From assembly GCF_028748185.1 (NCBI RefSeq), contig NZ_CP118164.1:4241814-4305813 (forward strand): a stretch of 64,000 nt of DNA. Direction: 5' to 3'. Shown piece by piece: positions 8,952 through 64,000 of the stretch; positions within the stretch are counted from its first letter, which is position 1, and each line of letters opens with the position of its first letter. The stretch is from Bremerella sp. P1 (lineage in GTDB: Bacteria; Planctomycetota; Planctomycetia; Pirellulales; Pirellulaceae). The position numbers and the translations under genes are program-made. The notes beneath the pieces are model-generated. The model made no database searches. It had not been told where the DNA came from and saw only the letters and a program-made list of their open reading frames with translations.

Positions 8952-8954
8952 GCC

Positions 8955-10649
8955 ATGGATAAACTACGACCAGCTATCGCGTTTTTAAAGAAGTATTACT
9001 TCTGGGTTTTCGCTCTCGTGGTGCTACTGGTTGGCATCGGCGGATGGTACATGTCGACCTCCACGCTGGATCAAGAGTACCAGGCACGAAGCCAGGAAAT
9101 TGATACTCGCTTGAACTCAGCTCGGCAAATTGCCAGTACGGCGAATCATCCCAATACGCAGTACGAAGAAGAAATGCAGACTTGGTTGACGCAATATCGC
9201 GACGATATTGACCAGGCCTGGCAAAAGAAATGGGAAGCGCAGAAGAGCGTTCTGACTTGGCCTGCGGAATTGAATGTTGGCGGTTCGGATTTCACCGATA
9301 TCGTCAACGGTATTCTCTTGGGTCGTCCCATCGAAGCTCTCACGGAGGAAGACAAGCCAATGTCGACCAACAAGCGAGAGCTTTACCGTGACTACATTAA
9401 GGAAGAACTACCAAAACTCGCCGAAATCATCCACGCCCGCTGGTCTCCATCTGGCAATGGTACAGGCGGTGGCGGGCAATTCGGTATCGAGGCCTTTGAT
9501 GGCGGAGCAGGTTTTGAAGGTGGCGGAATTTCTGGCATGGCCGGACTTGGCGGTCGCAATCCTAACACCGTTGAGAAGCCACCGCTGGTGATGTGGAATC
9601 CATCCAACCAAGCCAATATTCAGTCCAAGAGTTTTGATTGGTCTGGTAGCAATGCCAGTCAGGGTATTGGAGGAATGGACGGACCAGGTGGTAGCGGTGG
9701 TGCTACCGGTGCTGGTGGCCGTAACGTGCCGACGACGAAGGAAGTTCTCTACGCTCAAGAAAACCTGTGGGTGCTGCGGAACATCATGAATGTCATCGCC
9801 AAGACCAACGGCGATATTAGCAGCCCTCACCAGGCCACTATCAAGGCAATCGACACGATCGAGTTCGGTCGTGAAGTTATGCCGATTCGCTCCAAGGTTG
9901 TCATTCCACGTTCTCCTCTGGCCGCAGGCACGGATGAGTTCGGAATGGAGAGTGGAATGATGGATGACCCCTATGGCGATCCCAGCATGATGGATGAAGG
10001 GATGGGCATGGGTATGGAAGGCATGGGTATGGGCCCCGATGGCATGCCGCTGGATGGCATGGAGATGGACCCAGGCGATCTTCGTTATGTCGATAAAGAC
10101 TACAAGAAGCTGATGGTCGAAGACTTGAAAGCCGCCACCACGGAGCCAACTTCCGAGAATTACTACCTTTCGGTCGCCAAGCGATTGCCGGTTCGTATGC
10201 GATTCATTATGGACCAGCGTGAAATCGACAAACTGCTGGTGGAATGCGGCAATGCCGATCTCATGATCGAAGTTCGCCAAGTCCGTATTAACCCACAGAC
10301 ATCTGGTGTCGGTGGCATGGATGGTGGCATGGGCGGTTCCGGAATGGGCGGTCCTGGCATGAGCGACTTCGGCATGTCCGGCATGTCCGGAATGGGTGGC
10401 ATCGGTGGCGGCATGGAAATGGGCGGTATGGAAATGGGCGGCATGGGCCGTGGCGGCCAAAGCGGCGATGGCGTTGATCAAGCCGAGAAGATCTTCGATG
10501 CTCCCGTCGAGATCTACGGCATCATTTACATTTACAATCCAGTGAATCGTGACCTGTTGTGGCCTGAAGGGTCGCGACCAGTTGACGACGAGTCGACGGC
10601 GGATGATACCGCGACGGAAACCGCAAGCGTGACTGCAACCACTCGGTAA
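8955..10649 (+). CDS. PilO-like inner-membrane pilus assembly protein with Gly/Met-rich segments
   Basis: 564 residues. A short cytosolic start is followed by one transmembrane helix (residues ~14-33) and a helical segment (LDQEYQARSQEIDTRLNSA) entering the periplasm, the topology of PilO/GspM. It lies directly after the PilM-PilN fusion (3-base gap), the PilO position in pilMNOPQ. Low-complexity Gly/Met-rich blocks occur near residues 170-255, 330-375 and 450-500, with repeated GMGM and GMEMGGM units. The segment between the last two blocks (about 380-450), with YYLSVAKRLPVRMRFIMDQ, looks folded. Sequence identity to PilO is not obvious by eye; the call rests on topology and gene order. Confidence 0.6.
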   Translation: MDKLRPAIAFLKKYYFWVFALVVLLVGIGGWYMSTSTLDQEYQARSQEIDTRLNSARQIASTANHPNTQYEEEMQTWLTQYRDDIDQAWQKKWEAQKSVLTWPAELNVGGSDFTDIVNGILLGRPIEALTEEDKPMSTNKRELYRDYIKEELPKLAEIIHARWSPSGNGTGGGGQFGIEAFDGGAGFEGGGISGMAGLGGRNPNTVEKPPLVMWNPSNQANIQSKSFDWSGSNASQGIGGMDGPGGSGGATGAGGRNVPTTKEVLYAQENLWVLRNIMNVIAKTNGDISSPHQATIKAIDTIEFGREVMPIRSKVVIPRSPLAAGTDEFGMESGMMDDPYGDPSMMDEGMGMGMEGMGMGPDGMPLDGMEMDPGDLRYVDKDYKKLMVEDLKAATTEPTSENYYLSVAKRLPVRMRFIMDQREIDKLLVECGNADLMIEVRQVRINPQTSGVGGMDGGMGGSGMGGPGMSDFGMSGMSGMGGIGGGMEMGGMEMGGMGRGGQSGDGVDQAEKIFDAPVEIYGIIYIYNPVNRDLLWPEGSRPVDDESTADDTATETASVTATTR

Positions 10650-10719
10650 GCAGGCATGCACCTAACCTCATCTCTTCTCACATTCGGATGGCTCGGAACA
10701 GAATAAGGATGACTCAATC

Positions 10720-12942
10720 ATGAAGAAGCTGGACTTACAAAGCGGTGGGCTCAAATCAAAATTGATCCTTCACGTTGAAAAGCTCGTCTTCGGATTGGCT
10801 ATTCTCCTAGTGGTATTGTTTGTCTACCTCGGGACGCAGCAGCCGTCGATCGATACGAAGCCGGACGATCTCGTCCGTGCATCGGATCAGGCTCGCACCA
10901 ATATCGAGAAACAAACATGGACTGAGGTTGAAGAAGAACGTTGGGTTCCGCCGGAATATCAAACGGCTGCCACACGAGCTGGTAAGCCGATTCCTTTGGC
11001 ACCGTACGAGACTCCTTCAAGCTTTCGCGTACGCCACAAGGAAAGTATCGAGAAGCGACCAGATCCTACCCTGTTGCCGCTGACCGACATCGAAGTTACC
11101 CCGGGATTCGCTCCATTTGCATTCCTCAGCCCACAGCAAGCCAGCCAAGGCGGCCTGGGCATGATGCGTGAAGGTGGTCCTGGCATGATGCCTACTGGAT
11201 CGGAATACGACATCTACTCCGGTGGCGGATATGGCAGCGAGATGGGGATGGTCGATGCGAACGCACCACCGACGTTAACCCCTGAGCAATTGTTGGAATT
11301 CGGCCAGGCACGTGGTGGTACCGGTAGCAAAATCGAAGGCAAGTACTTCGTGGCAATCACCGGGCTTGCTCCGCTGAAGAAGCAACTCGATATGTACGAA
11401 GCTGCCTTCAAAGATCGTGCAAACTACATGGAAGGCCGCGACTATCCTCGTTATGTTCACTTCGCCATTGAACGACGCGAACAAAATCCAGATGGTAGCT
11501 GGGGCGAGTGGCAGAAGTCGATCAATGTGACTCAAGAACGACTGATTGCCCGTCATCGCTGGGCGTTCATTCCCGATGAAGTTGCTCCTCCAGAGTATCT
11601 CGACCCGACCCTCAGTTTCCCAATGCCTCCGATTCTGCTTTTCAATCCTGGCGACTGGGGACGTCATTCGACGGTTCCCAAGTATGAGCCTCGGGAACCA
11701 GGATATAACGATGGCATGATGACCGAGGACATGGAAATGATGCTGCCGGAAGCTGGCGGCGACCTGCCTAGTGATCTGCCTGGGTTTATGGGCCCTGACG
11801 GCGGAATGGGCATGGGGATGGGCATGGGCAGCGAAGGTAGTGGCGGCTTCATGGGGCCATACGGCCGTCCTGGTCGCATGCCTGGCATGGCCGGTGTTGG
11901 CAGCAACATCACGACGCCTCCTGAGGGAATGATGCTGAAGCCAACCGGCAATCGTGCCGGAGGTGGTGGTATGGCCATGGGCGAAGGTGGTGGCTATGGC
12001 GGCGGATATGGTGGTACGTCCATGTTCGACGCTGAGAACAAGATGTTCCGCTTCTACGACACCTCGGTCGTGCCCAACAAGAGCTATCAGTACCGAGTGC
12101 AATTGTGGTTGGAAGATCCTAATAATCCTCAGAACTTCCAGGAAGCTCCACCAGCTCGTGCTCTGGAAGGAGGCGTGCTGACACGTCTGAAGCCAGAACG
12201 TGACAAGATCACCAAGTTCATGCAAACGCAGCAGGGCGGTGGCATGGTCAGTCCTCGTGGTCAGACCGGACAGACTACACCACAGTTCAAGTTCTGGCGA
12301 ACCACCGACTTCAGCGAGCCTAGTGCTACGGTTCGCGTGCCATCGAGTGCGGATGTGCTCGCAGGTGCCGTCGATGCTGGCCGAACGGTTTACAACCGTA
12401 ATAACCAGCGACAGATTCTGCGTACGGCCGAACCAAATGCTACGGTTCTGGCCATGAAGTGGGATCCGAAGACCGATGTAAAGGCCTTGGTTACCAAGGA
12501 ACTCAAGGAAGTCACTCGTGGTAGCATGGTTGAATACGAAGGTGACCTGTGGATCTTGGATCCTGCCACTTATCAGTTCCGCAAGCCGTATCCGTTGGAT
12601 GCGGATAAGAAGGATCAAGAGTACACGCTTAAGACCGGCTACACGCTTCTTGATATTCGAGGTGGCGAGGACACCATTGGTCGCTACACCGACGAGAACA
12701 ACAAGAGGCTGAAGGTTCCAGGCGAAATCCTGGTGCTGGATGATGCTGGAAATATCCACATCAAGTCGGAACTTGAGGAAGTCAAAGAGTTCGCCAAGTT
12801 CAATTTCTCGAAGCCGGAGGTCAAGATCCCCAGAGGTGGTCGAGGCGGTCCAGAAGATCCCTACGGGATGGAAAGTGGATCTGGCTACGATGAATATGGT
12901 GGCGAAGGTCGTGGCAGACGAGGCCGCGGTCGAGGCGAATAG
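10720..12942 (+). CDS. PilP-position inner-membrane protein of the pilus-like operon
   Basis: 740 residues; ATG 10720 has an AAGGA Shine-Dalgarno. One transmembrane helix (about 20-42, FGLAILLVVLFVYLG) anchors a large periplasmic part. Met/Gly-rich low-complexity stretches near residues 145-180 and 335-440 (runs of GMGMGMG) separate two folded-looking areas: one around 205-310, and one around 445-700 with FRFYDTSVVPNKSYQYRVQ, a fibronectin-like opening. The C-terminus is Gly/Arg-rich (EGRGRRGRGRGE). The order (after PilO-like, before secretin) is that of PilP, which couples the inner-membrane platform to the secretin, but there is no clear PilP sequence match. A UUCG-loop terminator follows. 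Confidence 0.55.
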   Translation: MKKLDLQSGGLKSKLILHVEKLVFGLAILLVVLFVYLGTQQPSIDTKPDDLVRASDQARTNIEKQTWTEVEEERWVPPEYQTAATRAGKPIPLAPYETPSSFRVRHKESIEKRPDPTLLPLTDIEVTPGFAPFAFLSPQQASQGGLGMMREGGPGMMPTGSEYDIYSGGGYGSEMGMVDANAPPTLTPEQLLEFGQARGGTGSKIEGKYFVAITGLAPLKKQLDMYEAAFKDRANYMEGRDYPRYVHFAIERREQNPDGSWGEWQKSINVTQERLIARHRWAFIPDEVAPPEYLDPTLSFPMPPILLFNPGDWGRHSTVPKYEPREPGYNDGMMTEDMEMMLPEAGGDLPSDLPGFMGPDGGMGMGMGMGSEGSGGFMGPYGRPGRMPGMAGVGSNITTPPEGMMLKPTGNRAGGGGMAMGEGGGYGGGYGGTSMFDAENKMFRFYDTSVVPNKSYQYRVQLWLEDPNNPQNFQEAPPARALEGGVLTRLKPERDKITKFMQTQQGGGMVSPRGQTGQTTPQFKFWRTTDFSEPSATVRVPSSADVLAGAVDAGRTVYNRNNQRQILRTAEPNATVLAMKWDPKTDVKALVTKELKEVTRGSMVEYEGDLWILDPATYQFRKPYPLDADKKDQEYTLKTGYTLLDIRGGEDTIGRYTDENNKRLKVPGEILVLDDAGNIHIKSELEEVKEFAKFNFSKPEVKIPRGGRGGPEDPYGMESGSGYDEYGGEGRGRRGRGRGE

Positions 12943-12969
12943 TCGCCGATTTTCAAGTAGATTCTCCCC

Positions 12970-12998
12970 AAGGCGTTCTTCGGAACGCCTTTTCTTTT
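12970..12998 (+). terminator. Rho-independent terminator with UUCG tetraloop
   Basis: Perfect 9-bp stem AAGGCGTTC (12970-12978) with GAACGCCTT (12983-12991), loop TTCG, followed by TTCTTTT. It ends the PilMN-O-P transcript before the secretin gene. Confidence 0.85.
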
Positions 12999-13317
12999 GC
13001 GCAGGCAAAAACATCTATTGAGCCATCTCTCAGATCTCAGTACTGTACTGCCCGGCGATTTTTGCGCAGTCAGCAAGGGGGCAACCACTTGCTAGCACCG
13101 CAACCGGTCAGATTTCCAGAAAAAGATATGTAAGTCACCAAAACGGTATTGACCCCGTTTTGGACAACCGGTAATTAACCGCCTCACCTAGAAATGCAAG
13201 GATGCAGATTCACCAGTGCGCGCGGCGCGTGGACAGGGCAAGCGGTCCCATTTGAGGACCTGCGGGCACTGTTCCTCGTCAGAAACGTGTCGCCGTGGGG
13301 GGAAGGATAGGAACACC
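12999..13317 (+). promoter_or_regulatory. Long leader/intergenic region upstream of the secretin, with inverted repeat
   Basis: About 320 bases with no ORF of merit. CCAAAACGG (13138-13146) pairs perfectly with CCGTTTTGG (13155-13163). The 7-mer AACCGGT occurs on each side of this hairpin (about 13102 and 13166). The hairpin has no T-run, so it looks more like an operator or RNA leader element than a terminator. A strong Shine-Dalgarno (GGAAGGATAGG) precedes the ATG at 13318. No clear promoter consensus was found. Confidence 0.4.
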
Positions 13318-16300
13318 ATGAATCATTCTCGGACGATCCCAAAACACACGGATCGCAGGCTGCCACAAGTTCAGACAAGGAGTGTCGCTTTGAATTTGGC
13401 CACGCGTGTGCTTACAGCCGGTCTCATTGCCGTGCTGTGCTTCAGCACTGGAAAAGGGGTCGTCGCAAATCCGTTGACCGAGATTGAGCTCGTCACGTCA
13501 ATGTCGGCGACCGGTCAACAACAAGGTTCGCTTTATGATCAGCAAAAGCAGGAAGGGGTCCTGAAGGCAGCTCGCGAAGCGATGCGTGCCGGCGACTACC
13601 AACGTGCTCAGACTCTGATCGAGCAAGCCAAGTCGTTCAATGTTCCTGCAGATCCGGCTTTCAGCAAGTTTCGTGATACGCCCGAAAAGGCCGCTCGCGA
13701 TTTGGCTGAAATGACGGCTGCTCGAGCCAACCCAGACTACGTCGGCCAAAAGCTGCTCGGCCAGGAACCTGGCATGGAGCAGAAGATGGCAGCCGAAGCC
13801 CTGGCCCGTGGCAAGGAAGCCTTGAACAGCGGCCAGACGATGTCTGCTCTGAATTACTACCAACAAGCCGCCAAAGCTGGACCGAACTTCCAGTCGGACG
13901 GCTACTCGGTCATGGCTTTCCGCCGAGACCTGGAACAAGCAGGCGTTCGTCCTTCGATGCTCGGTGGCGAAGTCGCTGCTGGCGGTCCTGCTGCTCAGAC
14001 CAGCCCAACCCGGCTTCCGACGGTTAACGAAACGCCGGATCCGGCAATGACCAGCAACCCATACGCAGCTGCAACGGCCACGCAAGGTAACGCCGAAACG
14101 GCTCGTCGCATGCTGCTTCAAGCTCGCCTGGAACTCGCACGCGGGAATGTGGCTCTCGCAGAAAAGCTTGTTCGCCAGGTCCAGGGTTTGGGGCTCGTTT
14201 ATCCATCCCACCAAGACTCGCCCGAGAATGTCGATTACCTGATTCGTACCGTCAATCAAATTTCCGCCTCGCCGGTTGGTCCTCAGTCAGCCTACAAGTT
14301 TGGTGAAGTCCTGCTTCAGCAAGCCGAAGGCCTGATGCTTTATGGACAATACGATCTGGCGGAACAGATGACTCGTCAGGTTCAATCGATGAACCTCGAC
14401 TTCCAACGTGCTCGCGTGACTCCAGACCGCTTGCTGACCGAAATCACGCGACGCAAAAGCGGCGAAGCTGGTGGTAATCAGGTTGCTCCGAACGTTCCTG
14501 ACAACGTCGCAGGCAACGCCCACGCCAAAGAACAAGCCATCCTGGTTCAGGCCAAGACAGCCCTGGATCGTGGTGACCTTGGCACGGCTGAAGCCTTCAC
14601 CAAACAGGCCAGCACACTTGGAAATCGCAATTACCAAGATGGCGACCTTCGCCCTGACATGTTGATGCTGGAGATCTCGCGTGCGAAAGCTTCCAGCCCA
14701 GTGCGTCAAGCCAGTGGATCGACAGGTCCCATGGGTGCAGGGTTCCCAGTCGCTCAAGGACTCTACAATCCTCAAAACGACGACACGCGTAATGTGCCCG
14801 CTTCGGCTCAGCAGGACGCAACCGGCCAGGCTGGCATGCGTTACCTGCAAGAGGGTGAACAGGCCCTTGCCGCCGGCGACAAGATGAAAGCTCGCAAGCT
14901 GTTTGAAGAAGCTTGGAAGTACGAGGGACAACTCGATCCAGGTGCACGTCAGCGTTTGCAAGACTTCCTGCAGTATCAAACCAATCCCGTCACCAGCGGA
15001 GTTGCTCAAACGAGCAACCCTTCGCCGTTGGCCGAAGTCGACGCACGACAGCAAGTCTTGCTGCGACAGATGATTGCCGAAGTTACTCGCGAACAATCGC
15101 AGGCTGACGCCATGCGAGAAGTTGATCCGAAGGCTGCTTTGGACAAGTTGAAGAAGGTTCGTGTCACGGTTGATGAGTCGTCGATCGACGCCATCGCCAA
15201 GAAGCAGCTTCTCTCGCGTGTCGATCGTAGCATCGAATCGCTTGAGACCTACATCGACATGAACAAGTCGCAGATCGAACTCGACGAACGCAACGCTGCG
15301 ATCAAGACCGAGATCAAAGAAGATCGCGATCTCAAGCTCGAAATCGACGGTAAGCTGGCCGACATGACCAACCAGTTCAACGAACTGATGGATCAACAAC
15401 GTTGGCAGGAAGCGGAAGTGATCGCTCGCCAGGCTCGCGAAATGGATCCGGAGAACCCGGTTGTCCAAACGTTGATCTGGAAGGCCAAGTTCGCTCGACG
15501 TACTTACCAGAACATGGCTCTGAAGGACGAAAAGGAATCGAACGTTTGGCAGGCACTGCACAACGTCGATACCTCCTCCATCCCGTTCGACGACAACAAC
15601 CCAATCCAATTCGCCAGTGCGAAGGAATGGGAAGACATGACCGAACGTCGCCGACGCTGGTTGGCTGAGAACTCGCAGATCTCGGAAGACGAAGTCGAGA
15701 TTCGCAAGGCACTCAAGACCAAGGTCGACGTCAAATTCAACAAGCAGTCGCTGCAAAGCGTCATGGAAACCCTGGGCAACATGGTTGGTATCAACGTCAT
15801 GTTGGATCCACGTGGCCTACAGGCCGAAGGGGTGACCTACGACACTGAGATCAGCATCAACATGCAACAAGCGGTTCGCTTGGACAGTGCTTTGAATCAC
15901 ATTCTGCAGCCACTTCGGCTCAGCTACGTGATTCGTGACGAAGCCCTGGTCATTACCAGCGAATCGTTCCGCAGCCGCAACGTTTACCAGAAGGTTTACA
16001 ATGTGGCTGACCTGGTGCTGCCGATTCCGAACTTTGTACCGAGCTACAACATGGGTCTTCCAGGTGCCATTAAGGCTGCCTACGAAAGCCAAGGTATCAC
16101 TGGTTCGCCAGCCGGCACGATGGGTGGCTCGAACCCGATGTCGTTGTTCGCTCAGAATCAGGACATCAACAGCTCCAGTGCTCTGGCACAGGTTCCTAAC
16201 GGTTTCATCCCAGGCTTGGGAAGTGGTGGTCCTCCTGTCTCCGGTCAGCCACAAGGCAATATGGGCTTCGGTCCTGGCGGTGGCATCGGTGGTCCAGGCG

Positions 16301-17469
16301 GCTTCGGTGGTGGTGTTCAGCCTGACTTTGATCAGCTGATCGAACTCATCACGACAACCGTCGAACCGGAATCGTGGGAAGAACTGGGTGGTCCAGGTTC
16401 GATTGCACCATTCAGCACCAACCTCAGCCTGGTGGTTAGCCAGACTCAGGAAGTGCACGATCGACTGGCTGACCTTCTGGCTCAGCTGCGACGTCTGCAA
16501 GACCTTCAGGTGACCATCGAAGTTCGCTTCATCACTTTGAACGACAACTTCTTTGAACGCGTCGGTGTCGACTTCGACTTCCAGATTCAGGACAACACGA
16601 CTGGATTAGGTCCGAACCGTGACAACTCGGGTAGCCCAAGTGTCACGATCGGTATCGACCAGTTGGGTAACCCGACGGGTGACTTGGATCTCCAGTTCAA
16701 TCAGGACTTGTTCGGCAATACGATTCCATCGATCGGTGGTCTGGTGACTCCAGCAACTGCCGGTGCCACGTTTGGTTTCGCCATGCTTTCGGATATCGAA
16801 GCCTTCTTCGTGATGCAGGCCGCTCAGGGTGACTTGCGATCGAACGTGATGCAGGCTCCGAAGGTGACCTTGTTCAACGGTCAAACGGCATTCGTCTCGG
16901 ATACCACTCAAACCCCGTTCGTCACGAGCGTGATTCCTGTGGTGGGTGACTTTGCCGCGGCTCAACAACCGGTCATCGTGGTTCTGAATGAAGGTACTTC
17001 GCTCAGCGTCCAAGCGGTTGTCTCACCAGATCGTCGGTTCGTCCGACTGACCCTGGTGCCGTTCTTCAGCCGAATTGGTAACGTCGAAGAATTCACCTTC
17101 GAGGGTACGACCAGCAGTCGAACGGACTCGACGGTTGAAGATCCGGATGCTGCTGATGGTGGTACGACCAACGATCAAGACGAGACGATTACCTCTGGTA
17201 CGACGATTCAGTTGCCGCAGTTCTCCTTCGTGACGGTGAGTACGACGGTGAGTGTGCCAGACGGTGGTACGGTGCTGCTTGGTGGTATTAAGCGTCTGAG
17301 CGAAGAACGTCGCGAACGTGGTGTTCCGGTCTTCAGCAAGCTGCCGTACATCAACCGATTGTTCCGAGACGTTGGTATCGGTCGTGAAACCCAAAGCCTC
17401 ATGATGATGGTGACTCCTCGAATCATCATCCAAGAGGAAGAAGAAGCTAAGCTCGGCTTCACCCAATAA
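13318..17469 (+). CDS. Giant type II/IV secretin (GspD/PilQ family) with N-terminal repeat region
   Basis: 1383 residues from ATG 13318; the frame is open further upstream but without protein-like sequence. A signal peptide (hydrophobic ~29-45) targets it to the outer membrane. Residues ~60-600 contain at least four related ~100-residue units of the form A-x-LARGN-x-x-LAEKLVRQ, resembling TPR/Sel1-like helical hairpins ending in a D-P/R-P segment. A secretin N-type domain follows near 800-900 (FNKQSLQSVMETLGNMVGIN). A module at 1002-1032 (PDFDQLIELITTTVEP onwards) precedes the secretin pore domain, which ends with VPVFSKLPYINRLFRD and a conserved VTPRIII tail. Such secretins form the gated outer-membrane channel for pili or secreted substrates. 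Usual secretins are ~600-750 aa. Confidence 0.92.
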   Translation: MNHSRTIPKHTDRRLPQVQTRSVALNLATRVLTAGLIAVLCFSTGKGVVANPLTEIELVTSMSATGQQQGSLYDQQKQEGVLKAAREAMRAGDYQRAQTLIEQAKSFNVPADPAFSKFRDTPEKAARDLAEMTAARANPDYVGQKLLGQEPGMEQKMAAEALARGKEALNSGQTMSALNYYQQAAKAGPNFQSDGYSVMAFRRDLEQAGVRPSMLGGEVAAGGPAAQTSPTRLPTVNETPDPAMTSNPYAAATATQGNAETARRMLLQARLELARGNVALAEKLVRQVQGLGLVYPSHQDSPENVDYLIRTVNQISASPVGPQSAYKFGEVLLQQAEGLMLYGQYDLAEQMTRQVQSMNLDFQRARVTPDRLLTEITRRKSGEAGGNQVAPNVPDNVAGNAHAKEQAILVQAKTALDRGDLGTAEAFTKQASTLGNRNYQDGDLRPDMLMLEISRAKASSPVRQASGSTGPMGAGFPVAQGLYNPQNDDTRNVPASAQQDATGQAGMRYLQEGEQALAAGDKMKARKLFEEAWKYEGQLDPGARQRLQDFLQYQTNPVTSGVAQTSNPSPLAEVDARQQVLLRQMIAEVTREQSQADAMREVDPKAALDKLKKVRVTVDESSIDAIAKKQLLSRVDRSIESLETYIDMNKSQIELDERNAAIKTEIKEDRDLKLEIDGKLADMTNQFNELMDQQRWQEAEVIARQAREMDPENPVVQTLIWKAKFARRTYQNMALKDEKESNVWQALHNVDTSSIPFDDNNPIQFASAKEWEDMTERRRRWLAENSQISEDEVEIRKALKTKVDVKFNKQSLQSVMETLGNMVGINVMLDPRGLQAEGVTYDTEISINMQQAVRLDSALNHILQPLRLSYVIRDEALVITSESFRSRNVYQKVYNVADLVLPIPNFVPSYNMGLPGAIKAAYESQGITGSPAGTMGGSNPMSLFAQNQDINSSSALAQVPNGFIPGLGSGGPPVSGQPQGNMGFGPGGGIGGPGGFGGGVQPDFDQLIELITTTVEPESWEELGGPGSIAPFSTNLSLVVSQTQEVHDRLADLLAQLRRLQDLQVTIEVRFITLNDNFFERVGVDFDFQIQDNTTGLGPNRDNSGSPSVTIGIDQLGNPTGDLDLQFNQDLFGNTIPSIGGLVTPATAGATFGFAMLSDIEAFFVMQAAQGDLRSNVMQAPKVTLFNGQTAFVSDTTQTPFVTSVIPVVGDFAAAQQPVIVVLNEGTSLSVQAVVSPDRRFVRLTLVPFFSRIGNVEEFTFEGTTSSRTDSTVEDPDAADGGTTNDQDETITSGTTIQLPQFSFVTVSTTVSVPDGGTVLLGGIKRLSEERRERGVPVFSKLPYINRLFRDVGIGRETQSLMMMVTPRIIIQEEEEAKLGFTQ

Positions 17470-17502
17470 CGCCGTACGCGGCAAATCGACTATGACCTCC
17501 TG

Positions 17503-17544
17503 CCGCCGTGAAACGTCTTCGGACTTTCACGGCGGTACTTTTTT
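17503..17544 (+). terminator. Rho-independent terminator of the secretin gene
   Basis: Perfect 11-bp stem CCGCCGTGAAA (17503-17513) with TTTCACGGCGG (17525-17535), then TACTTTTTT. It lies 34 bases beyond the secretin stop. Confidence 0.9.
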
Positions 17545-17659
17545 GCGCTATGCGAAGAATTTGGCGTACAATGGAAGCTTCGTCGAAGGGACTCGTTCGT
17601 AGTATTGTCCGCGATTGGTCTCTCTCCATTTGGCAATCGCATCTCAGAGGAAATTACTT

Positions 17660-57610: not shown

Positions 57611-58024
57611 TCAAGAGCGGGCAACCAACAGTGCCAGCAAAATCCACGGAGAAATGGCAATCGCTATTGCGGCCAACTGGAGTGATTTAGGGGCTCGCCG
57701 CTTGCGTTGCGACTGGACGATGGGGGTTAATATGCCACCAACGCTTCCGCTGACGATCGCGGAAAAGAGAAGCAGATCGGCAAAGCCTGTCCACGTATTG
57801 CTTGTATTCTCTTCTGGCTGCAAAAAGGCTGCTGAGCCTCGCAGAATCAAGAATACAATCACCATGACCAAGGTCGCAAAAATACACAAACTCCAAAAGA
57901 CCGTTAGCGATTCAATCGCTTGGGGTTCGCTTGGAGGTTGATGGACCTCGGGACGCGACAACTTCTTGGAGCTTCGCCGCTTCTTCGACACGATGGGGCC
58001 TATGCTTGCTGATGGTGGTGTCAA
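57611..58024 (-). CDS. Small two-helix membrane protein, start uncertain
   Basis: About 137 residues from TTG 58024 (with GAAGGT close upstream). The open frame begins at GTG 58111, but that codon is inside the terminator of the upstream CCAPEP-related gene, so a later start is likelier; TTG 58048 is another option. Two membrane helices (SLCIFATLVMVIVFLIL and LLLFSAIVSGSVGGIL) plus a third hydrophobic stretch at the end (IAIAISPWILLALLVA). The start is basic (KKRRSSKKLSR). Function unknown. Confidence 0.55.
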   Translation of the reverse strand: MTPPSASIGPIVSKKRRSSKKLSRPEVHQPPSEPQAIESLTVFWSLCIFATLVMVIVFLILRGSAAFLQPEENTSNTWTGFADLLLFSAIVSGSVGGILTPIVQSQRKRRAPKSLQLAAIAIAISPWILLALLVARS

Positions 58025-58094
58025 TCGACCTTCAGTATGAGGGGGCAAAATCGATTGGTCAACGATCTTCTCTAGGCAAACATTCGGGCAATCG

Positions 58095-58130
58095 CAAAAG
58101 AAACAGGACACCTCATTTAAGGTGCCCTGT
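58095..58130 (-). terminator. Rho-independent terminator of CCAPEP-related gene 3
   Basis: ACAGGACACCT (58103-58113) pairs with AGGTGCCCTGT (58120-58130) with one mismatch; TTTCTTTT follows on the minus strand. It lies 50 bases beyond the stop at 58179. Confidence 0.8.
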
Positions 58131-58178: not shown

Positions 58179-58604
58179 TTACAAGCCGTAGTAGTGAACG
58201 TCGACATGACCACATTGCTTGAAGACCATTTTGATCTTGAAGCCGCAGCACCATTCGTATTCGACAATGCCACGATGGAACAAACCGCAACGGCTGTCGA
58301 TCGTGGGGACGCCGGTGCAGCAGCTCGGCAGGCAGACCGGAACGTCAACAAAGCAGTTGCATCGCGGATCGACGACTTGCAGGACAGCCTCGACTGGGGG
58401 GCAGCAGCTGCAGGGACAGGCCTTCTTCACGAACAGCTTGTGCGTTTTGTAGTGAAAGCACGGTTCGTAGCAGCAAGGAGTCGGTGGTTCTGGAGCACAG
58501 CAGCCTGGTTCCAGATTCTTGTTCGCGGCGGTCGCTTGGCCTGCGGATACGAGCATGACAGCCGCAACTAGCAGAAATGGGACGGTCTTGGTGAAGTAAG
58601 TCAT
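58179..58604 (-). CDS. Exported Cys-rich protein related to the CCAPEP family
   Basis: 141 residues from ATG 58604, with GGAGTC upstream; the 21 codons before it are not protein-like. Signal peptide ends QATA before ANKNL. The mature chain has one CCAPEP unit, then CCYEPCFHYKTHKLFVKKACPCSCCPP and many Cys pairs, and a beta-type end (GIVEYEWCCGFKIKMVFKQC). It shares the opening CCAPEP with the two repeat proteins but has a different, probably folded, body. Likely an envelope or metal-binding protein. Confidence 0.78.
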   Translation of the reverse strand: MTYFTKTVPFLLVAAVMLVSAGQATAANKNLEPGCCAPEPPTPCCYEPCFHYKTHKLFVKKACPCSCCPPVEAVLQVVDPRCNCFVDVPVCLPSCCTGVPTIDSRCGLFHRGIVEYEWCCGFKIKMVFKQCGHVDVHYYGL

Positions 58605-59009
58605 GGTGGTAGACTCCAATGTCCAAAGGGCAATTAGGCGAGAATCCCTCTCACACGGTGCCCGCAATTCCCAGCGAGCGCAAACACTTTATTCCAGCCT
58701 AACATCTCTCTGGTAATGAGCAACTGGGTAGTTTTTACCGCCTGAAAAGCTCTTCTGGGCCGGTTTACGGCTTGCTCTTAAGTTCGATGGAGAGCAATTT
58801 CGCTGGTTTCTTTTGCCTCTCAGGCAGTTTCGACCTACGTTTTCAATGGCGGTTGGTGAACCAGACCAGCTTCCTCTCGACTTTTCCAGGGAAACTCTCG
58901 CGTTTTCCTTTACGACTTATTCAATTTGGCCCCGTTTCCCACGGCGTCCAATCCGGACAGAGATTCATGGCCGAGTTCCCACCAAGTAATGGCGGAAGGC
59001 AGGGTTGAC
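58605..59009. other. Intergenic region before the GTPase operon, nothing recognised
   Basis: 405 bases between divergent genes. An open frame starts at TTG 58926 but its first ~28 codons do not read as protein. No clear promoter, hairpin or repeat found; the operon promoter should be here. Confidence 0.35.
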
Positions 59010-59897
59010 GTGAATGCTCACGCAATAGCATCAGAAATGAGCCCCGAATACGCGCCGCTCGATCAGGCACTCACTCAGCTGCGCCAGCACAACGGCGAAC
59101 TGGAGAAGTTCATTGATCATCTTCTTCAAGAGATTGCCAACCTCGGGCAAGAGGTCGAATCGCGCGCATCCGAGTTGATGAAAGCTCGACGAGAAATCGA
59201 TCATACTTCGGAAGTATCCGTACAAGCTGCGCAGGAAAACCTGCGACTTTCGCAACAAGTTGTCGAGCGCGAAGAAGCGTTGAAGAAGGCCAACGCGGAA
59301 ATCGAACAGCTTCGTCAGCAACTTTCCGAATCAGCACAAAATCCCCCTAGCGACCCCGCGAGCCAGCAACGTATCGCCGAATTGGAACAACAACTACAGA
59401 ACTCTCAGTCGCATAGCCAGCAGGATACGGATCTGCTGGAAGAGGTCGAACAACTGCGTCGTGACTTGGCAGCGACGAAGCTCGAACTGATGCGACGCGA
59501 CGAAGCGCACACAATCGTGCGGGAAGATTCCGATCACGATACGCTTCGCGAACGAAATCAGGCCCTCGAAGGCGAACTGCAGCAGGCCCGCGGCCGCGCA
59601 GTTCAACTGACCGAGGAGATCGATCAGCAACGCAAAGAGCTCAACCAGCAAAAGTCTGCCTGGTCGGAAGAACTGCAGGCCATGCGTTCTCTCTTGGAAC
59701 GTCGCACTGCGGCACCTACCGAAACTGCACAGCCACAATCGTTTGCCGACACTTCCGTCATAAGCGATACCGCAACCGTCTGTCGCGACGAGTTGGAGTA
59801 TCGAGCCAATAACAACAATACCGTTGTCGATTCCGTGATGGCGCAATTTGCCAAATTGCAACGAGACGTGAACAAACGCCGCGGACAGCGTCGTTAA
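59010..59897 (+). CDS. Coiled-coil protein of the GTPase-GAP1 operon
   Basis: About 295 residues from GTG 59010 (AAGGCAGGG just upstream); ATG 58989 and ATG 59037 are alternative starts. Residues ~15-240 are a nearly continuous coiled coil rich in Glu, Gln and Leu (QLRQHNGELEKFIDHLL, EIEQLRQQLSESA), with a break around 100-110 (NPPSDPAS). A C-terminal ~60-residue segment has DELEYRANNNNTVVDSVMAQ, then a basic tail (KLQRDVNKRRGQRR). No signal peptide. First gene of the operon; the FGE-like gene follows 42 bases later. It is likely a scaffold that oligomerises. Confidence 0.72.
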   Translation: MNAHAIASEMSPEYAPLDQALTQLRQHNGELEKFIDHLLQEIANLGQEVESRASELMKARREIDHTSEVSVQAAQENLRLSQQVVEREEALKKANAEIEQLRQQLSESAQNPPSDPASQQRIAELEQQLQNSQSHSQQDTDLLEEVEQLRRDLAATKLELMRRDEAHTIVREDSDHDTLRERNQALEGELQQARGRAVQLTEEIDQQRKELNQQKSAWSEELQAMRSLLERRTAAPTETAQPQSFADTSVISDTATVCRDELEYRANNNNTVVDSVMAQFAKLQRDVNKRRGQRR

Positions 59898-59939
59898 TTC
59901 GCACCCTTTTCCCAACGATTCCTACTCAGGACACATCTC

Positions 59940-61157
59940 ATGAATCGCTATGTAGTAGGAGGGGCCGGCGTAGCAAGCGTAGTCGTATTGATATCGCTAA
60001 CGTGGCTCTTCGGCAGCTTCTCTTGGGCTCTGGCTACAACCGTTCTCATTGCTGCCGTTGGCGGTGGTTTTTTCGCCTATCGACAATTCACTCAGAAGTT
60101 CGCCGCGCAGCCAAGTACCAACTCGTCGCAACCGGAAGATGCTGCACCTCGCCGAGCCGCTTCGCCCGTCGACACAAGTAATTCTAAAGACTCGCAGTCT
60201 CTTGCTCGAAAGATGTTGGATCAAGGGCGATACACTCTGCTATTACGCCCGCAAATTGCCGAAAGTATTCCGTCGAAACTGCTCAATCGTGCCCAAACGA
60301 TGCTCGATGACGAAATGACGCTCGTTCCCGGGGGTGAGACGATCGTCGGAAAAGGAGCCAACGATTCACCTGATTCGCCTGATCATCTTGACGGTCGTGT
60401 CGTCCAGGTCGAAGGATTCTATCTCGATCGATACCAGGTCACTAACGAACAATTTTATCGCTTCGTTCAAAACGGCGGTTACGAACAAATCTCGCTGTGG
60501 GACCCGGAAATCGTTCCGGCACTGCTCGACTTCGTCGATTCCACGGGCGAACCAGGGCCACTGTTTTGGAAAAACGGTAAGTATCTTTCAGGACAAGCTC
60601 AGCTTCCCGTTGTAGGTGTGTGCTGGTATGAAGCCGCCGCCTACGCCCGGTGGGTTGGCAAGCGTCTGCCGACCGATCCCGAGTGGGTTAAGTCCGGCAG
60701 TTGGCCGGTGCCACTTCCAGGGGCACGCCCGATCCAACGTAAATATCCTTGGGGCGAGGCATTTGACCTCAACAAGTGCAACCTCTGGGGTAGCGGTCAT
60801 GGGTCAACTGTACCGGTAGAAAAGTACGACGAAGGCATGAGTGTCGGTGGTGCCAATCAGCTGATTGGCAACGTTTGGGAATGGACCTCCAGCCGCTTCG
60901 GTGCCTGGCAATCTAGTTCTTCCCCTCTGGTGCTCGACGCATCGATGCGAAGTATTCGTGGCGGGGCTTTCGACACCTATTTCGAGACCCAGGCCACATG
61001 CGATTTCCAAAGCGGCGACAAAGCCGTCGCTCGGAAGCGAAACATCGGATTTCGCTGTGCAATTGGAATCTGTGATCTGATCCCTGACCAGTCGATGCAA
61101 GCCGAGGAACACCCGGCCCAGGTCGAAACTCAAGAACTTGCTGAGGTGGCCCAATGA
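59940..61157 (+). CDS. Membrane-anchored formylglycine-generating-enzyme (SUMF1)-fold protein
   Basis: 405 residues. Two membrane helices at the start (about 9-29 and 30-50), a Ser/Pro linker, then the FGE-sulfatase fold (about 120-385): MTLVPGGETIVGKG, VTNEQFYRFVQ, LPVVGVCWYEAAAYARWVGKRLPT, YPWG, GNVWEWTSSR, SIRGGAFD and GFRCAIG, the whole family signature. In true FGEs two cysteines lie just before the final strand; here only one (ATCDF) is seen, so formylglycine activity is unlikely. Such folds also serve as ligand-binding or effector domains. Its stop overlaps the GTPase start (ATGA). Confidence 0.82.
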   Translation: MNRYVVGGAGVASVVVLISLTWLFGSFSWALATTVLIAAVGGGFFAYRQFTQKFAAQPSTNSSQPEDAAPRRAASPVDTSNSKDSQSLARKMLDQGRYTLLLRPQIAESIPSKLLNRAQTMLDDEMTLVPGGETIVGKGANDSPDSPDHLDGRVVQVEGFYLDRYQVTNEQFYRFVQNGGYEQISLWDPEIVPALLDFVDSTGEPGPLFWKNGKYLSGQAQLPVVGVCWYEAAAYARWVGKRLPTDPEWVKSGSWPVPLPGARPIQRKYPWGEAFDLNKCNLWGSGHGSTVPVEKYDEGMSVGGANQLIGNVWEWTSSRFGAWQSSSSPLVLDASMRSIRGGAFDTYFETQATCDFQSGDKAVARKRNIGFRCAIGICDLIPDQSMQAEEHPAQVETQELAEVAQ

Positions 61158-62059
61158 CCAAGCGTGTCCTCGTAGCCATGGATTCGTATCGACTCGCGGA
61201 ATGCGCTGTGCCGTTGGCATGTTACATCTGCGGTAGCGATAACAACTACAACACGGAACTTTGCCGCCATTGCGCCGCGCCGCTCGCTTTGTCGCATCAG
61301 GCACGCACCCAAGGGGTTCGTCCGCAGATGGTTGCCGTCTTGGGCACCGCGGCGGCCGGTAAGACCGTGTACCTGGGGATGCTGCTGGACATGCTGACTC
61401 GGCAAAACAGCCGCGTCCAAGTGCTGGCCCGTGGGGCATTCTCCATCACGCTACAACAACGCACGATGATGGCGTTGTCGAATTGCCGTTTCCCAGAGAA
61501 AACCCCCAACGAACCCGATCGTTGGAACTGGGTTCACTGCCAGGCCAAGATCAATTCCAAGAAGAACCCGATGGAGCTGATCATGCCGGATATGGCTGGG
61601 GAAGCGATCTTGGAAGAGATCGACCATCCCAATGCCTATCCGGCCATTCATTCCTTCCTGGAAAAGTGCTCAGGTGTCATTCTGCTCGCCGATACCGATC
61701 GAATTGAACGCGGCGGGGCCGAACAGAACTACTTCCTGATGAAGCTGATCACCTATCTCAGTGAGCAAGATAGCCGCAAGACGCGTGGCAAAACGACGCG
61801 GCCGGTGGCGATCGTGTTTTCCAAAGCAGATCGCTGTGAACCATGCTTCGATAATCCCGAGTTGTATGCCCGTGAGAAAACGCCGAATCTGTGGCAACAG
61901 GTTCAACAGCGTTTTACTAACTATGGTTTCTTCGCTTCAGGTGTCGCCGGCTCGGTTGGCTTCCGCGAAGAACTGGGTGAAGGAACATCCGCCGTACCGC
62001 TGCGGATTGAGCCGCGCGGCATTGTAGAACCGTTTGAATGGCTCGTACGCAAAGTATAG
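61154..62059 (+). CDS. Zinc-ribbon P-loop GTPase-like protein
   Basis: 301 residues. An N-terminal zinc ribbon, Cys23-x2-Cys26 and Cys37-x2-Cys40, precedes a TRAFAC-like GTPase: Walker A GTAAAGKT (64-71), G3 DMAGEAI near 152 and G4-like FSKADRC near 223 (family NKxD, here SKAD). No membrane helices. Such GTPases with a zinc ribbon and a GAP1-type neighbour are described in reports on bacterial GTPase-centred systems. ATGA overlap with the FGE-like gene and 13 bases to the GAP1-like gene argue for one complex. Confidence 0.78.
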   Translation: MTKRVLVAMDSYRLAECAVPLACYICGSDNNYNTELCRHCAAPLALSHQARTQGVRPQMVAVLGTAAAGKTVYLGMLLDMLTRQNSRVQVLARGAFSITLQQRTMMALSNCRFPEKTPNEPDRWNWVHCQAKINSKKNPMELIMPDMAGEAILEEIDHPNAYPAIHSFLEKCSGVILLADTDRIERGGAEQNYFLMKLITYLSEQDSRKTRGKTTRPVAIVFSKADRCEPCFDNPELYAREKTPNLWQQVQQRFTNYGFFASGVAGSVGFREELGEGTSAVPLRIEPRGIVEPFEWLVRKV

Positions 62060-62072
62060 TTGGTCGCAACCT

Positions 62073-63323
62073 ATGGCTCCGCACTCTTCCAGTAATCTTC
62101 AAGTCGCTCCTTCTCAATCGAATCTTTCCGGAACCGTTGCCGTTGAACAGGCCATCTTTACGTCGGCACGTACGTCGTCCAAAGATGGCTATCAATTGGT
62201 CGCGTGGAGCCCCGGTATCAGTAGCGACGATGCCCGTCAGCTGGCGGTGTGGGGACCGGCACACGATTCGATGATCGTGGACGATCCGACGGACGTAAGT
62301 CTCAATTTTCATCCGCTGGGGGATCACAAGTTCTGCGTATCGAGGACGGTGCTCGGCGCGGCTGAGTACAGCGGAAGAGGTGGCCGACAAGTTTATACGC
62401 ACTGCTTTGTGCTCGACGCTGCTTCGTTCAAGAGGTTCAATAACGATCCATTTCGCGTCCTGTCGGCGGCACTGTCGATTCACGATTTGCGACCGGGCGC
62501 GACGCTTCCTACCGATCTTCCTACGATGAAGATGTTGCCGTCAGGAGGTCCTGTCGATGCGGGGTTGATTCGATTCTTCGATTCGCCCGTCCAGCAACAA
62601 TCGCTGGTGGCTTGGACGCACTATGCGATGACGTCGAAGAAGCTGCTCTTTACTGGAGGCTATAACGATCGCTTCTTGAGCGTCTTTTTCAACCTGCTGC
62701 CGGTCTCCATTCGACCCCACTTTACGTTCTCGACACGGCTACGCTATTCACAACGCCGAGACTTCCGCTTGGTTGGCCTGGCCAATGATGTACAAGAGCA
62801 AAAGAAAGCTGCCCGTCAGGAAGGCTTCCATGTATTTCACTTTGATTCACCGGCTCGAACGCCAGAGGCGTCGCGTCATCCTTGGGCCACATGGCTTCAA
62901 GTAGCGCTCTGCCATCGCGAGCCTGACGAAGCGGCTCGAATGATCAGCGAAGTTCCCCTGACAACGCGGTTGGAAGATCTTTCCGCCGTGGGTAACCGAT
63001 TACGAGTGGCGATGTCCGGCAAAAAACGGAACAAGGAGGCGGCTACTGCCCCAGCCGCTTCCACGCCACTGGTAGTCCCGGAAGAGAACACCGATCGGGC
63101 CGAGCTGTTCGAACTGGTCGAGCGTGCTTTGGATGGCGATGTGACCGCGCTCGAGCGGCTCAATGCAACGTGGTGCGCTCAGCCTGATCAACAGCTCCAG
63201 GCACTGCGTCAGGAGTGCGCTCGCCACTTCCTGAGTCTGGCGAAAGAAAAGAATTGCGAGCCAGGATCGAAAGGGGCGACCGCGGTCGAGATCCTGAGCC
63301 TGATCTTGCGAGTGAGTCCCTAG
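62073..63323 (+). CDS. GAP1-like (GTPase-associated protein 1) protein
   Basis: 416 residues from ATG 62073; the upstream frame overlaps the GTPase and is not protein-like. The N-terminal ~190 residues resemble the GAP1 N-terminal domain: VEQAIFTSARTSSKDGYQLV, then AWSPGISSDDARQLAVWGP and THCFVLDAASFKRFNNDPF. A central part (230-290) contains LLFTGGYNDRFLSVFFNLLP and FTFSTRLRYSQRRDFRLVGL. The end is helical. GAP1 proteins occur next to GTPases and were proposed to act as adaptors or regulators in GTPase-centred conflict systems (Aravind and co-workers). The family match is by eye. FliM gene converges 2 bases on. Confidence 0.6.
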   Translation: MAPHSSSNLQVAPSQSNLSGTVAVEQAIFTSARTSSKDGYQLVAWSPGISSDDARQLAVWGPAHDSMIVDDPTDVSLNFHPLGDHKFCVSRTVLGAAEYSGRGGRQVYTHCFVLDAASFKRFNNDPFRVLSAALSIHDLRPGATLPTDLPTMKMLPSGGPVDAGLIRFFDSPVQQQSLVAWTHYAMTSKKLLFTGGYNDRFLSVFFNLLPVSIRPHFTFSTRLRYSQRRDFRLVGLANDVQEQKKAARQEGFHVFHFDSPARTPEASRHPWATWLQVALCHREPDEAARMISEVPLTTRLEDLSAVGNRLRVAMSGKKRNKEAATAPAASTPLVVPEENTDRAELFELVERALDGDVTALERLNATWCAQPDQQLQALRQECARHFLSLAKEKNCEPGSKGATAVEILSLILRVSP

Positions 63324-63325
63324 GA

Positions 63326-64000
63326 CTACGTGCCAGGCGGTTTGCGTTCGTAGCTACGTTCGATTTGAATCGCTTTCCGACCTTTGAATGCCCCAGCGAA
63401 TGCTTGAAAAGTGGGGGTTCCGTTCACATTGACTCGCAAGGGCGTACGCGCGTCTTTCTCGGTCGTTATCACGTCCCCGACCCGCAGGTCGAGCAGTTCT
63501 TCCATCGAGATCTTGGTTTCGGCCAGGATCACGTCGAGTTCCACTTGGGCCTTATCGAGGTGTACGCCCAGGGCGGCCTTCGATTCTGGCGTGGCCTCAC
63601 TGCTGCCGTAGGCGAACCACGTGTTGGCTGTCAGCTTATTGCTGATGCGTTCAATGGAGTTGAACGGGATACACAAGTTGATCATACCGCGGACATCGCC
63701 GATGGCCAGCTCGAAGCTGACCAGCACCACGACTTCATTCGGCGGCACAATTTGAACCAGCTGGGGATTGCTCTCGACGCGAACGACGCGGAGGTCCAAC
63801 GGAAGCACGTTGTCCCAGGCATCCTTCAGCTCGATCAGAAACAGGTCCGAGATGCGTGAGACCAGGGTAAGTTCAATTTCGGTAAGAGGTCGTCGCGAAG
63901 CAGGCGTACTTTCTTTACCGCCCCCGAGCAAACGATCGATGATCGGATACAGAATGGATGGGTTGATGTCGAGGATCAGGTTCCCTTCCAGCGGCTCGGC
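63326..64000 (-). CDS. fliM: Flagellar motor switch protein FliM (partial, N-terminus beyond window edge)
   Basis: The reading frame runs open to base 64000, so the N-terminal CheY-binding part is missing; about 224 residues are seen. Beyond the apparent TTG at 63931, PSILYPIIDRLLGGG continues in frame, a FliM hallmark. It then reads PLTEIELTLVSRI and, after a long stretch, the C-terminal SpoA-like domain (ISMEELLDLRVGDVITT, then VNVNGTPTFQAFAGAFKGRKAIQI). FliM links CheY-P to rotor switching at the C-ring. The fragment ends 2 bases from the GAP1-like gene. Confidence 0.93.
   Translation of the reverse strand, partial: AEPLEGNLILDINPSILYPIIDRLLGGGKESTPASRRPLTEIELTLVSRISDLFLIELKDAWDNVLPLDLRVVRVESNPQLVQIVPPNEVVVLVSFELAIGDVRGMINLCIPFNSIERISNKLTANTWFAYGSSEATPESKAALGVHLDKAQVELDVILAETKISMEELLDLRVGDVITTEKDARTPLRVNVNGTPTFQAFAGAFKGRKAIQIERSYERKPPGT

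Follow-up and report, generated by a model that had tools for sequence, protein, structure and literature searches.

A four-gene operon of the planctomycete Bremerella sp. P1 may constitute a broadly vertically inherited, membrane-tethered GTPase switch, in which the protein GAP1 would act as a longin-type GTPase-activating protein (GAP) equipped with an arginine finger; we favour this reading, though with marked reserve. The operon lies in a stretch of 64,000 nucleotides (RefSeq assembly GCF_028748185.1, contig NZ_CP118164.1, positions 4,241,814 to 4,305,813), hereafter the window, where four open frames on the forward strand at 59010-63323 encode, in this order, a coiled coil, an FGE-fold protein, a zinc-ribbon GTPase and GAP1. 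An initial annotation of the sequence had described the genes as tightly packed, which the frames and the intergenic gaps of 42, -4 and 13 bases confirm, and its domain calls, namely a coiled coil, a non-catalytic FGE fold with a membrane anchor, a zinc-ribbon GTPase and GAP1, are borne out by Pfam, hydropathy and alignments. What the analysis shows is the gene order, the obligate pairing of FGE and GTPase, conservation, modularity, the fold resemblance of a model and the loss of an E-x-x-x-R motif from GAP1 proteins that lack a GTPase.

The kind of system is already known, because Kaur et al. (2020; eLife, PMC7159879) describe GTPase-centric systems of DO-GTPases and GAP1, with N1 and N2 types, and report in that text that some planctomycete GAP1-N2 systems carry FGS (FGE) domain effectors. 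Their proposal was based on genomic context, and in PMC7159879 GAP1 appears without an assigned biochemical activity. The link to the GTPase-GAP1 conflict systems of Aravind and co-workers, which the initial annotation had drawn, was right. Its suggestion of an undescribed variant stands in part: FGS domains in planctomycete GAP1-N2 systems are in print, while the obligate pairing of FGE and GTPase, the constancy of a non-catalytic FGE, a detachable C-terminal domain of GAP1, and the longin-like GAP1 with its loop motif are new, the pairing, the detachable domain and the longin-type reading having escaped the annotation as well. The terms longin, DENN, roadblock and TagF do not occur in the text of PMC7159879, and in the literature searched, outside of which most subscription journals and supplements fell, GAP1 was nowhere found described as a longin protein or as the carrier of an arginine finger.

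FGE and GTPase form an obligate pair. Among 117 genomes of the order, the GTPase is strongly matched in 54, with one copy per genome (a 55th match, in G005, is weak at 9.2e-7 and was left out), and an FGE ortholog, at a threshold of E < 1e-80 that we set ourselves, is present in the same 54; the two genes lie adjacent on one contig in 52, and in G008 and G072 the GTPase starts within 412 bases of the contig start. A contig search for GTPase relatives provided further loci, of which the best 80 of 109 were used; these share some contigs with the 32 regions of the order in which gene order was read. The gene immediately before the GTPase is FGE in all 32 order regions and in 78 of the 80 loci (75 found automatically, and L127, L128 and L130 by inspection, as over-long frames hid them); in the remaining loci, L097 and L147, fewer than 300 bases precede the GTPase. 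Thus, the gene order is far beyond chance. The two frames overlap by four bases in 18 of the 32 regions, with starts chosen by script. Behind the GTPase follows a GAP1 N domain in 27 of the 32 regions and 71 of the 80 loci, a standalone C-domain in five and two, and neither of them in none and five, two loci being cut off. Profile matches to both GAP1 and GTPase, and an association of the genes in homologous neighbourhoods across other Planctomycetota, are therefore in place, the absence of which the initial annotation had named as grounds to abandon its proposal. By title, the 80 relatives belong to Planctomycetota and include Blastopirellula marina, Singulisphaera acidiphila, other Isosphaeraceae and Phycisphaerae; the exceptions are an unnamed bacterium (L079) and a contig titled Nealsonbacteria (L093; 54% identical, 301 residues), a title that is probably misassigned. 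Across 294 genomes of the phylum, the GTPase profile matches 13, four of them at E < 1e-90.

The reading of GAP1 as a longin-type protein starts from its predicted structure. The sequence matches GAP1-N2 (PF20013) at 9.8e-17 and GAP1-M (PF20014) at 6e-4, the latter below cut-off; among 80 GAP1 relatives, five of which are standalone C-domains, the two domains are found in 75 and 38. In the AlphaFold2 model (pLDDT 89.4), the secondary-structure elements of the N domain follow the order b-b-a-b-b-b-a by DSSP, which fits a longin domain. The best Foldseek row is a chain of the FLCN-FNIP2-Rag-Ragulator complex (E 3.5e-4); next come the active FLCN GAP complex (2.4e-3), TagF (4.0e-3), another FLCN-FNIP2 chain and a Lokiarchaeal roadblock-longin domain (probability 0.99), and after these chains of Lst4 longin and of GATOR1. 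Of the top 21 rows, 13 belong either to the Rag-GTPase GAP complexes FLCN-FNIP2, Lst4 and GATOR1 or to the Lokiarchaeal domain; as rows name the entry and not always the subunit, the longin subunit is assumed for the complexes. Going by the model, the longin assignment is probable. In the longin GAPs, SMCR8 Arg147 is reported as a catalytic finger seen in place (PMC8213707), and FLCN Arg164 and NPRL2 Arg78 are described as sitting in analogous loops (PMC7464330). GAP1 has a conserved loop arginine of its own, R102, which may correspond to FLCN Arg164 and NPRL2 Arg78.

The conservation of this arginine was compared over 77 aligned GAP1 proteins, comprising 75 from the main alignment, from which the five standalone C-domains were removed, and the two proteins from L236 and L237. 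Both R102 and E98 are kept in all 70 GTPase-linked GAP1 proteins, so that the loop motif [DE]xxxR (E-x-x-x-R102) occurs in 70 of 70 proteins with a GTPase and in none of the seven without one. In the latter, the R102 column holds W, a gap, H, D and a gap in L074-L078, and R and K in L236 and L237, both of which are very divergent. R102 is the sole column among 40 conserved ones that is lost in all five clear GTPase-less cases (L074-L078), in which P62, H64, T109, R214 and R229 are always kept and E98 is kept in three. Eroded together with R102 are S100, S31, Y99, T30, G39 and P146, all but P146 being located in two hairpins (30-39 and 98-102) that are expected to be spatial neighbours. The arginine also extends beyond this clade: the 294 genomes yield 27 GAP1-N2 matches, 26 of them over the cut-off (4 from this clade, 22 from others), and each of these 26, to which the count is confined, has it, as GR in 24 and QR in two, with the arginines of L245 and L261 read by eye. 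A profile of the clade aligned to 17 canonical GAP1 proteins gives a probability of 96.5 and an E-value of 9.4e-10, with both arginines aligned. The genome of the window also holds another DO-GTPase2/GAP1-N2 system, of the canonical form (L268; genes at 8155-17583 within contig 1:1724000-1743000), which includes a GYF_2+DUF4190 protein and a MotA/ExbB-family gene and resembles the GYF type of Kaur et al. The arginine goes with the GTPase rather than with FGE, since the GAP1 of the L268 system has it, while none of the eight proteins scanned there is an FGE.

TagF, the type VI secretion repressor among the structural neighbours, offers a further point of comparison. Its Foldseek match to GAP1 spans 357 columns (probability 0.95), and a D-x-x-G-R loop that closely resembles the arginine loop of GAP1-N2 is found in 28 of 30 planctomycete copies (L269-L298; 30 fetched of 41 matched). 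According to PMC5995506, TagF residues G8/K9 and S79/D81/R85, described as one loop surface, are required for Fha binding and repression. Because of this, a docking face on the two-hairpin surface of GAP1 is plausible by analogy. The known partner of TagF is Fha, however, and not a GTPase.

In the mechanism that we propose, the zinc-ribbon DO-GTPase would be the switch, cytoplasmic and held at the inner membrane. Its obligate partner, the FGE-fold protein, would in most of the Pirellulales examined be tethered through a hydrophobic stretch at its N-terminus, while its FGE domain would face the cytoplasm and probably serve as a platform that binds peptides or proteins. GAP1 would dock on the GTPase with its longin-like N domain, and R102 in the b4-b5 loop would enter the active site, the same finger mechanism having been proposed for FLCN and NPRL2 (PMC7464330) and seen for SMCR8 (PMC8213707). 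In many Pirellulales, coiled coil and GAP1 C-domain may make up a scaffold kernel; the switch of FGE and GTPase, together with the longin GAP, would either have joined this kernel or have been lost from it. The physical contacts, the GAP activity and the role at the membrane are what we infer here; that the output is envelope or cell-organisation signalling is a guess.

Several observations weigh against this mechanism. In or near the loop, five of the seven GTPase-less GAP1 proteins have other arginines, of which one falls in the R102 column of the alignment; only L074 and L237 have no other arginine in the loop; because of these remaining arginines, the loss in the absence of a GTPase concerns motif and register, not every arginine. 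Two of the five clear GTPase-less cases lack R102 through an alignment gap, three of the five come from one family (f17), so the independent losses perhaps number only three, and FGE was lost in the same genomes as the GTPase. R102 may also, by analogy to TagF, dock rather than catalyse. The structural matches to GAP1 are modest, with one below an E-value of 0.001, whole-chain TM-scores of about 0.2 and scores of 0.38-0.46 for the longin domain only, and a sequence search of the PDB with the GAP1 profile returned noise only. As hhalign gave a probability below 1 for the relation to TagF, both locally and globally, TagF was rejected as a sequence homologue. Moreover, no GAP1 N domain is detected in seven of the 54 FGE-GTPase genomes, and the GAP is therefore not always needed. 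Finally, when distances are corrected for those of RpoB, GTPase and GAP1 show a partial correlation of 0.05 (781 of 2000 permutations as high); although the mechanism puts the two in direct contact, they are the only pair without extra correlation, and hence give no sign of co-evolution.

This last value stems from a comparison of 22 genomes with all five proteins, including RpoB, in which distances follow those of RpoB closely (Mantel r 0.83 for the GTPase, 0.78 for FGE, 0.83 for GAP1 and 0.79 for the coiled coil). Given RpoB, the other pairs retain partial correlations of 0.50 for FGE and coiled coil (0 of 2000 permutations as high), 0.39 for GTPase and coiled coil (3/2000), 0.37 for FGE and GAP1 (8/2000), 0.36 for GTPase and FGE (16/2000) and 0.35 for GAP1 and coiled coil (1/2000). 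In a set of 27 genomes the GTPase-FGE value rises to 0.64, probably inflated by family f7, and 0.36 is the fairer one. Inheritance of the operon is broadly vertical. The ratios of nonsynonymous to synonymous substitution rates (dN/dS) between the window and three close relatives are 0.02-0.03 for the GTPase, 0.06-0.08 for FGE, 0.08-0.10 for GAP1 and 0.13-0.14 for the coiled coil; because of these low ratios, the operon is seen to be under strong purifying selection, not in an arms race.

The GTPase itself is a clear member of its family, matching DO-GTPase1 at 4.2e-14 and DO-GTPase2 at 7.3e-14, and PF19975/PF19993 are matched in all 79 relatives. Across these 79 aligned proteins the CxxC...CxxC cysteines of the zinc ribbon are invariant, as are D146 and G149, and E150 is a glutamate in 69, an aspartate in 7 and an alanine or serine in 3. 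The AlphaFold2 model (pLDDT 89.9) has Ras, Rab, Arf and MglA as Foldseek neighbours. Compared with phage sequences the GTPase had no match, and with plasmids six weak matches only.

Its partner carries a strong FGE-sulfatase match (PF03781, 5.7e-40) and no further Pfam domain. In the alignment to a solved FGE chain, E350 stands opposite the first active-site cysteine and C354 opposite the second; nearly all orthologs have E or D at the first of these positions, and 26 of 29 have C at the second. Judged by these alignments, the catalytic cysteine pair is missing, though one half is often kept, and the protein is very unlikely to be an enzyme and very probably a non-enzymatic partner. A role in sulfatase maturation was rejected, the first catalytic cysteine being absent. 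The orthologs are well conserved, with a mean column identity of 40% over 29 members, including an RGGAFDTYF..QAT stretch near the usual active site, and FGE is a conserved, constant partner, not a variable effector. By a hydropathy scan, the window protein begins with a single long hydrophobic stretch (residues 3-33), which could correspond to one or two transmembrane helices; one or two such segments are seen in 22 of 29 orthologs, but none in the other seven; the same scan finds none in eight further FGE proteins, five of them titled Isosphaeraceae, Singulisphaera or Phycisphaerae/-ales. Since there are orthologs without a hydrophobic segment, and since the GTPase partner is cytoplasmic, the FGE domain is probably located in the cytoplasm.

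The operon is modular, and the C-terminal domain of GAP1 is a separate module that also stands alone. In the window protein this domain is present without a Pfam match, and none was found above cut-off in the five standalone copies scanned; 35 relatives are without such a domain. It may or may not correspond to the GAP1-C domain of the published systems. The last ~80 residues of GAP1 also form a gene of their own, mostly of 117-146 residues, which follows the GTPase in family f7 (L068-L072) and follows the coiled coil directly, without FGE, GTPase or GAP1 N domain, in families f13 and f19 (L209, L210, L212-L214, L231-L234); among those f7 genomes that lack the pair (L221-L230), profile matching recognises a coiled coil upstream in three only. 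Altogether, standalone copies were seen in most of L068-L072, L147, L154, L209-L214 and L221-L235 (not L211), often behind a coiled-coil gene. The GAP1 profile matches 80 of the 117 order genomes. By model coverage, the 54 genomes with the pair comprise 47 with a GAP1 N domain, five with the C-domain only (all family f7) and two with neither (G022, G043), and the 63 without the pair comprise seven with an N domain, 21 with the C-domain only and 35 with nothing. As seen within two genera, FGE and GTPase come and go together, while the scaffold often stays: in g24, G036 has everything, and G019, G045 and G065 have coiled coil and C-domain only, and in g23, G035 has everything, and G018 (L074) has the coiled coil and a whole GAP1, with no FGE or GTPase. 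The kernel of coiled coil and C-domain is not universal, with 35 loci having a GAP1 N domain and no detected C-domain, some of them at contig ends; they include Isosphaeraceae, Phycisphaerae and a good number of Pirellulales.

The coiled-coil gene itself has a GTG start at 59010, with an in-frame ATG at 58989 as a possible earlier start, and only coiled-coil-type Pfam matches below cut-off. It could be identified in 28 of the 32 order regions and in 50 of the 80 contig-search loci (13 cut off), some misses being artefacts of long frames, and is mostly not found in Isosphaeraceae. Its C-terminal tail, DSVMAQFxxLQRDxxxRR, recurs across Pirellulales, with a shorter form in Phycisphaerae, and is altered, often still recognisable, in loci without the GTPase. 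As the motif persists in several loci that lack FGE and GTPase, the idea that this tail docks the FGE-GTPase pair is weakened. A coiled-coil gene of ~1250-1380 residues divergently adjoins the operon in L143, L146, L148, L149 and L157, four of the five being titled Phycisphaerae/Phycisphaerales.

How does the operon relate to systems described before? With the GAP1-N2 systems of Kaur et al. it shares a DO-GTPase with a zinc ribbon and the Walker B glutamate (DMAGE), a downstream GAP1-N2 (with a weak GAP1-M), a membrane component and the FGS domain of some planctomycetes. It differs in the lack of an FN3 match among its four proteins and the five neighbours scanned, in a GAP1 of 416 residues as opposed to 803 in the GYF-type system of the same genome, in its coiled coil and detachable C-domain, in an FGE that is constant and not variable, and in being broadly vertical with the same core across families, whereas the known type is mobile with a highly variable effector. 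The complexes FLCN-FNIP2, Lst4, GATOR1 NPRL2/3 and SMCR8-C9orf72 have a longin-like domain, a Ras-superfamily GTPase partner and a conserved longin-loop arginine, features for which GAP1 offers a probable longin-like domain, a Ras-like GTPase as its proposed partner and a conserved loop arginine as candidate counterpart; these longin-DENN GAPs are eukaryotic multi-subunit complexes, however, compared to one bacterial protein, there is no sequence match, and the equivalence of the loops is putative. MglA-MglB, too, pairs a Ras-like GTPase of bacteria with a Roadblock GAP, from the longin/roadblock group, and MglA is among the structural matches of our GTPase, but its GTPase is of another family, and zinc ribbon and FGE partner belong to the present operon. 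Longin and roadblock are described as circular permutations of each other (PMC3521125), and according to Zhang et al. (2012; PMC3521125) eukaryotic longin domains derive from prokaryotic MglB-like GAPs; a bacterial relative of the longin GAPs is therefore not unexpected. The Group 1 Rup GTPases (PMC4316618), as reported there, are prokaryotic Ras-like GTPases with a cytoplasmic coiled-coil and a membrane protein among their neighbours and with a proposed GAP; they are likened here by description, and the word planctomycete does not occur in PMC4316618.

Three other explanations compete with an arginine-finger GAP in a resident switch. GAP1 could dock on the GTPase as a longin-like partner, or act as its effector, and be no GAP at all, with R102 contacting a partner without catalysis, which we consider possible if rather doubtful: TagF reportedly binds Fha through the segments that match (PMC5995506), longin domains are described also in guanine nucleotide exchange factors and trafficking proteins (PMC3521125), the GTPase persists in some genomes that have no GAP1 N domain, and the divergence of GTPase and GAP1 is uncorrelated beyond RpoB. 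Yet the best structural neighbours of GAP1 are entries of GAP complexes, the longin-loop arginine is the catalytic residue proposed or seen in those complexes, and the [DE]xxxR motif separates the 70 proteins with a GTPase completely from the seven without.

The operon could alternatively be an anti-invader conflict system in the sense of Kaur et al., with the GTPase setting a threshold, GAP1 coupling sensing to the effector, and FGE as the effector gripping invader molecules. While the protein families are those of the GAP1-N2 systems, for which PMC7159879 reports FGS domains in planctomycetes, and the presence in 54 of 117 order genomes is patchy, with several families mixed, we regard this as unlikely: FGE is constant and conserved (40% identity, dN/dS 0.06-0.08), the distances follow RpoB (r 0.78-0.83), there is one copy per genome, PADLOC matched gene 1 alone, as coiled-coil noise, and none of genes 2-4, and the GTPase has no phage and only six weak plasmid matches. 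A defence role is thus unsupported, if still conceivable, and the alternative of signalling or defence left by the initial annotation narrows towards signalling, given the single copy, vertical inheritance, purifying selection, lack of a PADLOC match for genes 2-4 and conserved FGE. Least probable by far is that FGE works as a sulfatase-maturing or EgtB-like enzyme in a metabolic operon; the strong PF03781 match, the EgtB-type matches and the cysteine at the second active-site position in 26 of 29 orthologs would fit, but nearly all of them have E or D at the first, and the protein has no other Pfam domain and is obligately paired with a GTPase.

The features of the operon and of its divergent neighbour are collected in the table.

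Table. Features of the four-gene operon and its divergent neighbour, in window positions.
Feature	Position	Strand	Basis or remark
Gene 1, coiled-coil scaffold, 295 aa	59010..59897	+	open frame; sub-threshold Pfam coiled-coil-type matches; same-place homologues in many relatives
Gene 1 C-terminal tail DSVMAQFxxLQRDxxxRR	59829..59894	+	recurs in Pirellulales
Gene 2, FGE-fold protein, 405 aa, hydrophobic N-terminal stretch	59940..61157	+	PF03781 5.7e-40; hydropathy scan; ortholog alignment
FGE domain (residues 124-374), lacking the first catalytic cysteine	60309..61061	+	
Gene 3, Ras-like GTPase of the DO-GTPase family, N-terminal zinc ribbon, 301 aa	61154..62059	+	PF19975/PF19993; model
Zinc ribbon C23xxC26...C37xxC40	61220..61273	+	invariant in 79/79
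Walker A / P-loop G64-x4-GKT	61343..61366	+	
Switch II DMAGE incl. Walker B region glutamate E150	61589..61603	+	D146, G149 invariant
Gene 4, GAP1, 416 aa: GAP1-N2, GAP1-M and separate C-terminal domain	62073..63323	+	PF20013; weakly PF20014; model; fold matches
GAP1-N2 domain, residues 22-136, order b-b-a-b-b-b-a, longin-like	62136..62480	+	model DSSP; Foldseek
R102 codon AGA, EYSGRGG loop, proposed arginine finger	62376..62378	+	conservation pattern
C-terminal helical domain 'gapC', residues 336-416	63078..63320	+	elsewhere also a gene of its own
Divergent neighbour, small Cys-rich secreted-looking protein	58179..58604	-	frequent, not dedicated partner

The Cys-rich neighbour is without a Pfam match. 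It points away from the coiled-coil gene in 21 of 32 order regions (two cut off), and this divergent arrangement is also seen where FGE and GTPase are absent; as it is present in 86 of 117 order genomes, many without the operon, a role as dedicated partner was rejected. Next to it lies a small membrane protein (57611-58111, reverse strand) with a sub-threshold DUF1129 match, relatives of which recur beside the Cys-rich gene in several loci, and fliM (63326-64000, reverse strand) is convergent with the operon. A link to flagella via fliM was rejected, FliM being detected in nine of 38 regions searched, all from the window's own family. An M29 peptidase and RmlD are also among the neighbours by Pfam. 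A promoter and terminator scan found no sigma-70-like site, and terminators at chance level.

Taken as a whole, the operon resembles a resident molecular switch more closely than a defence weapon under rapid evolution. Which parts form the switch is shown by losses that occurred naturally in Pirellulales, where FGE and GTPase always disappear together and the scaffold is often kept, and the longin resemblance, along with an arginine motif that vanishes with the GTPase, leads to a single-residue prediction for an in vitro assay. Extended to bacterial DO-GTPase systems at large, GAP1, their constant component, could be a longin-type arginine-finger GAP akin in structure to FLCN, NPRL2 and SMCR8, which serve eukaryotes in nutrient and membrane signalling, human nutrient sensing included, and possibly to TagF, with the planctomycete version a switch with an obligate dead-FGE partner, a generalisation that we hold more loosely still than the reading of the single operon. 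If it is true, the longin arginine-finger GAPs known from eukaryotes would have a bacterial counterpart, which would bear on the origin of such GTPase regulators.

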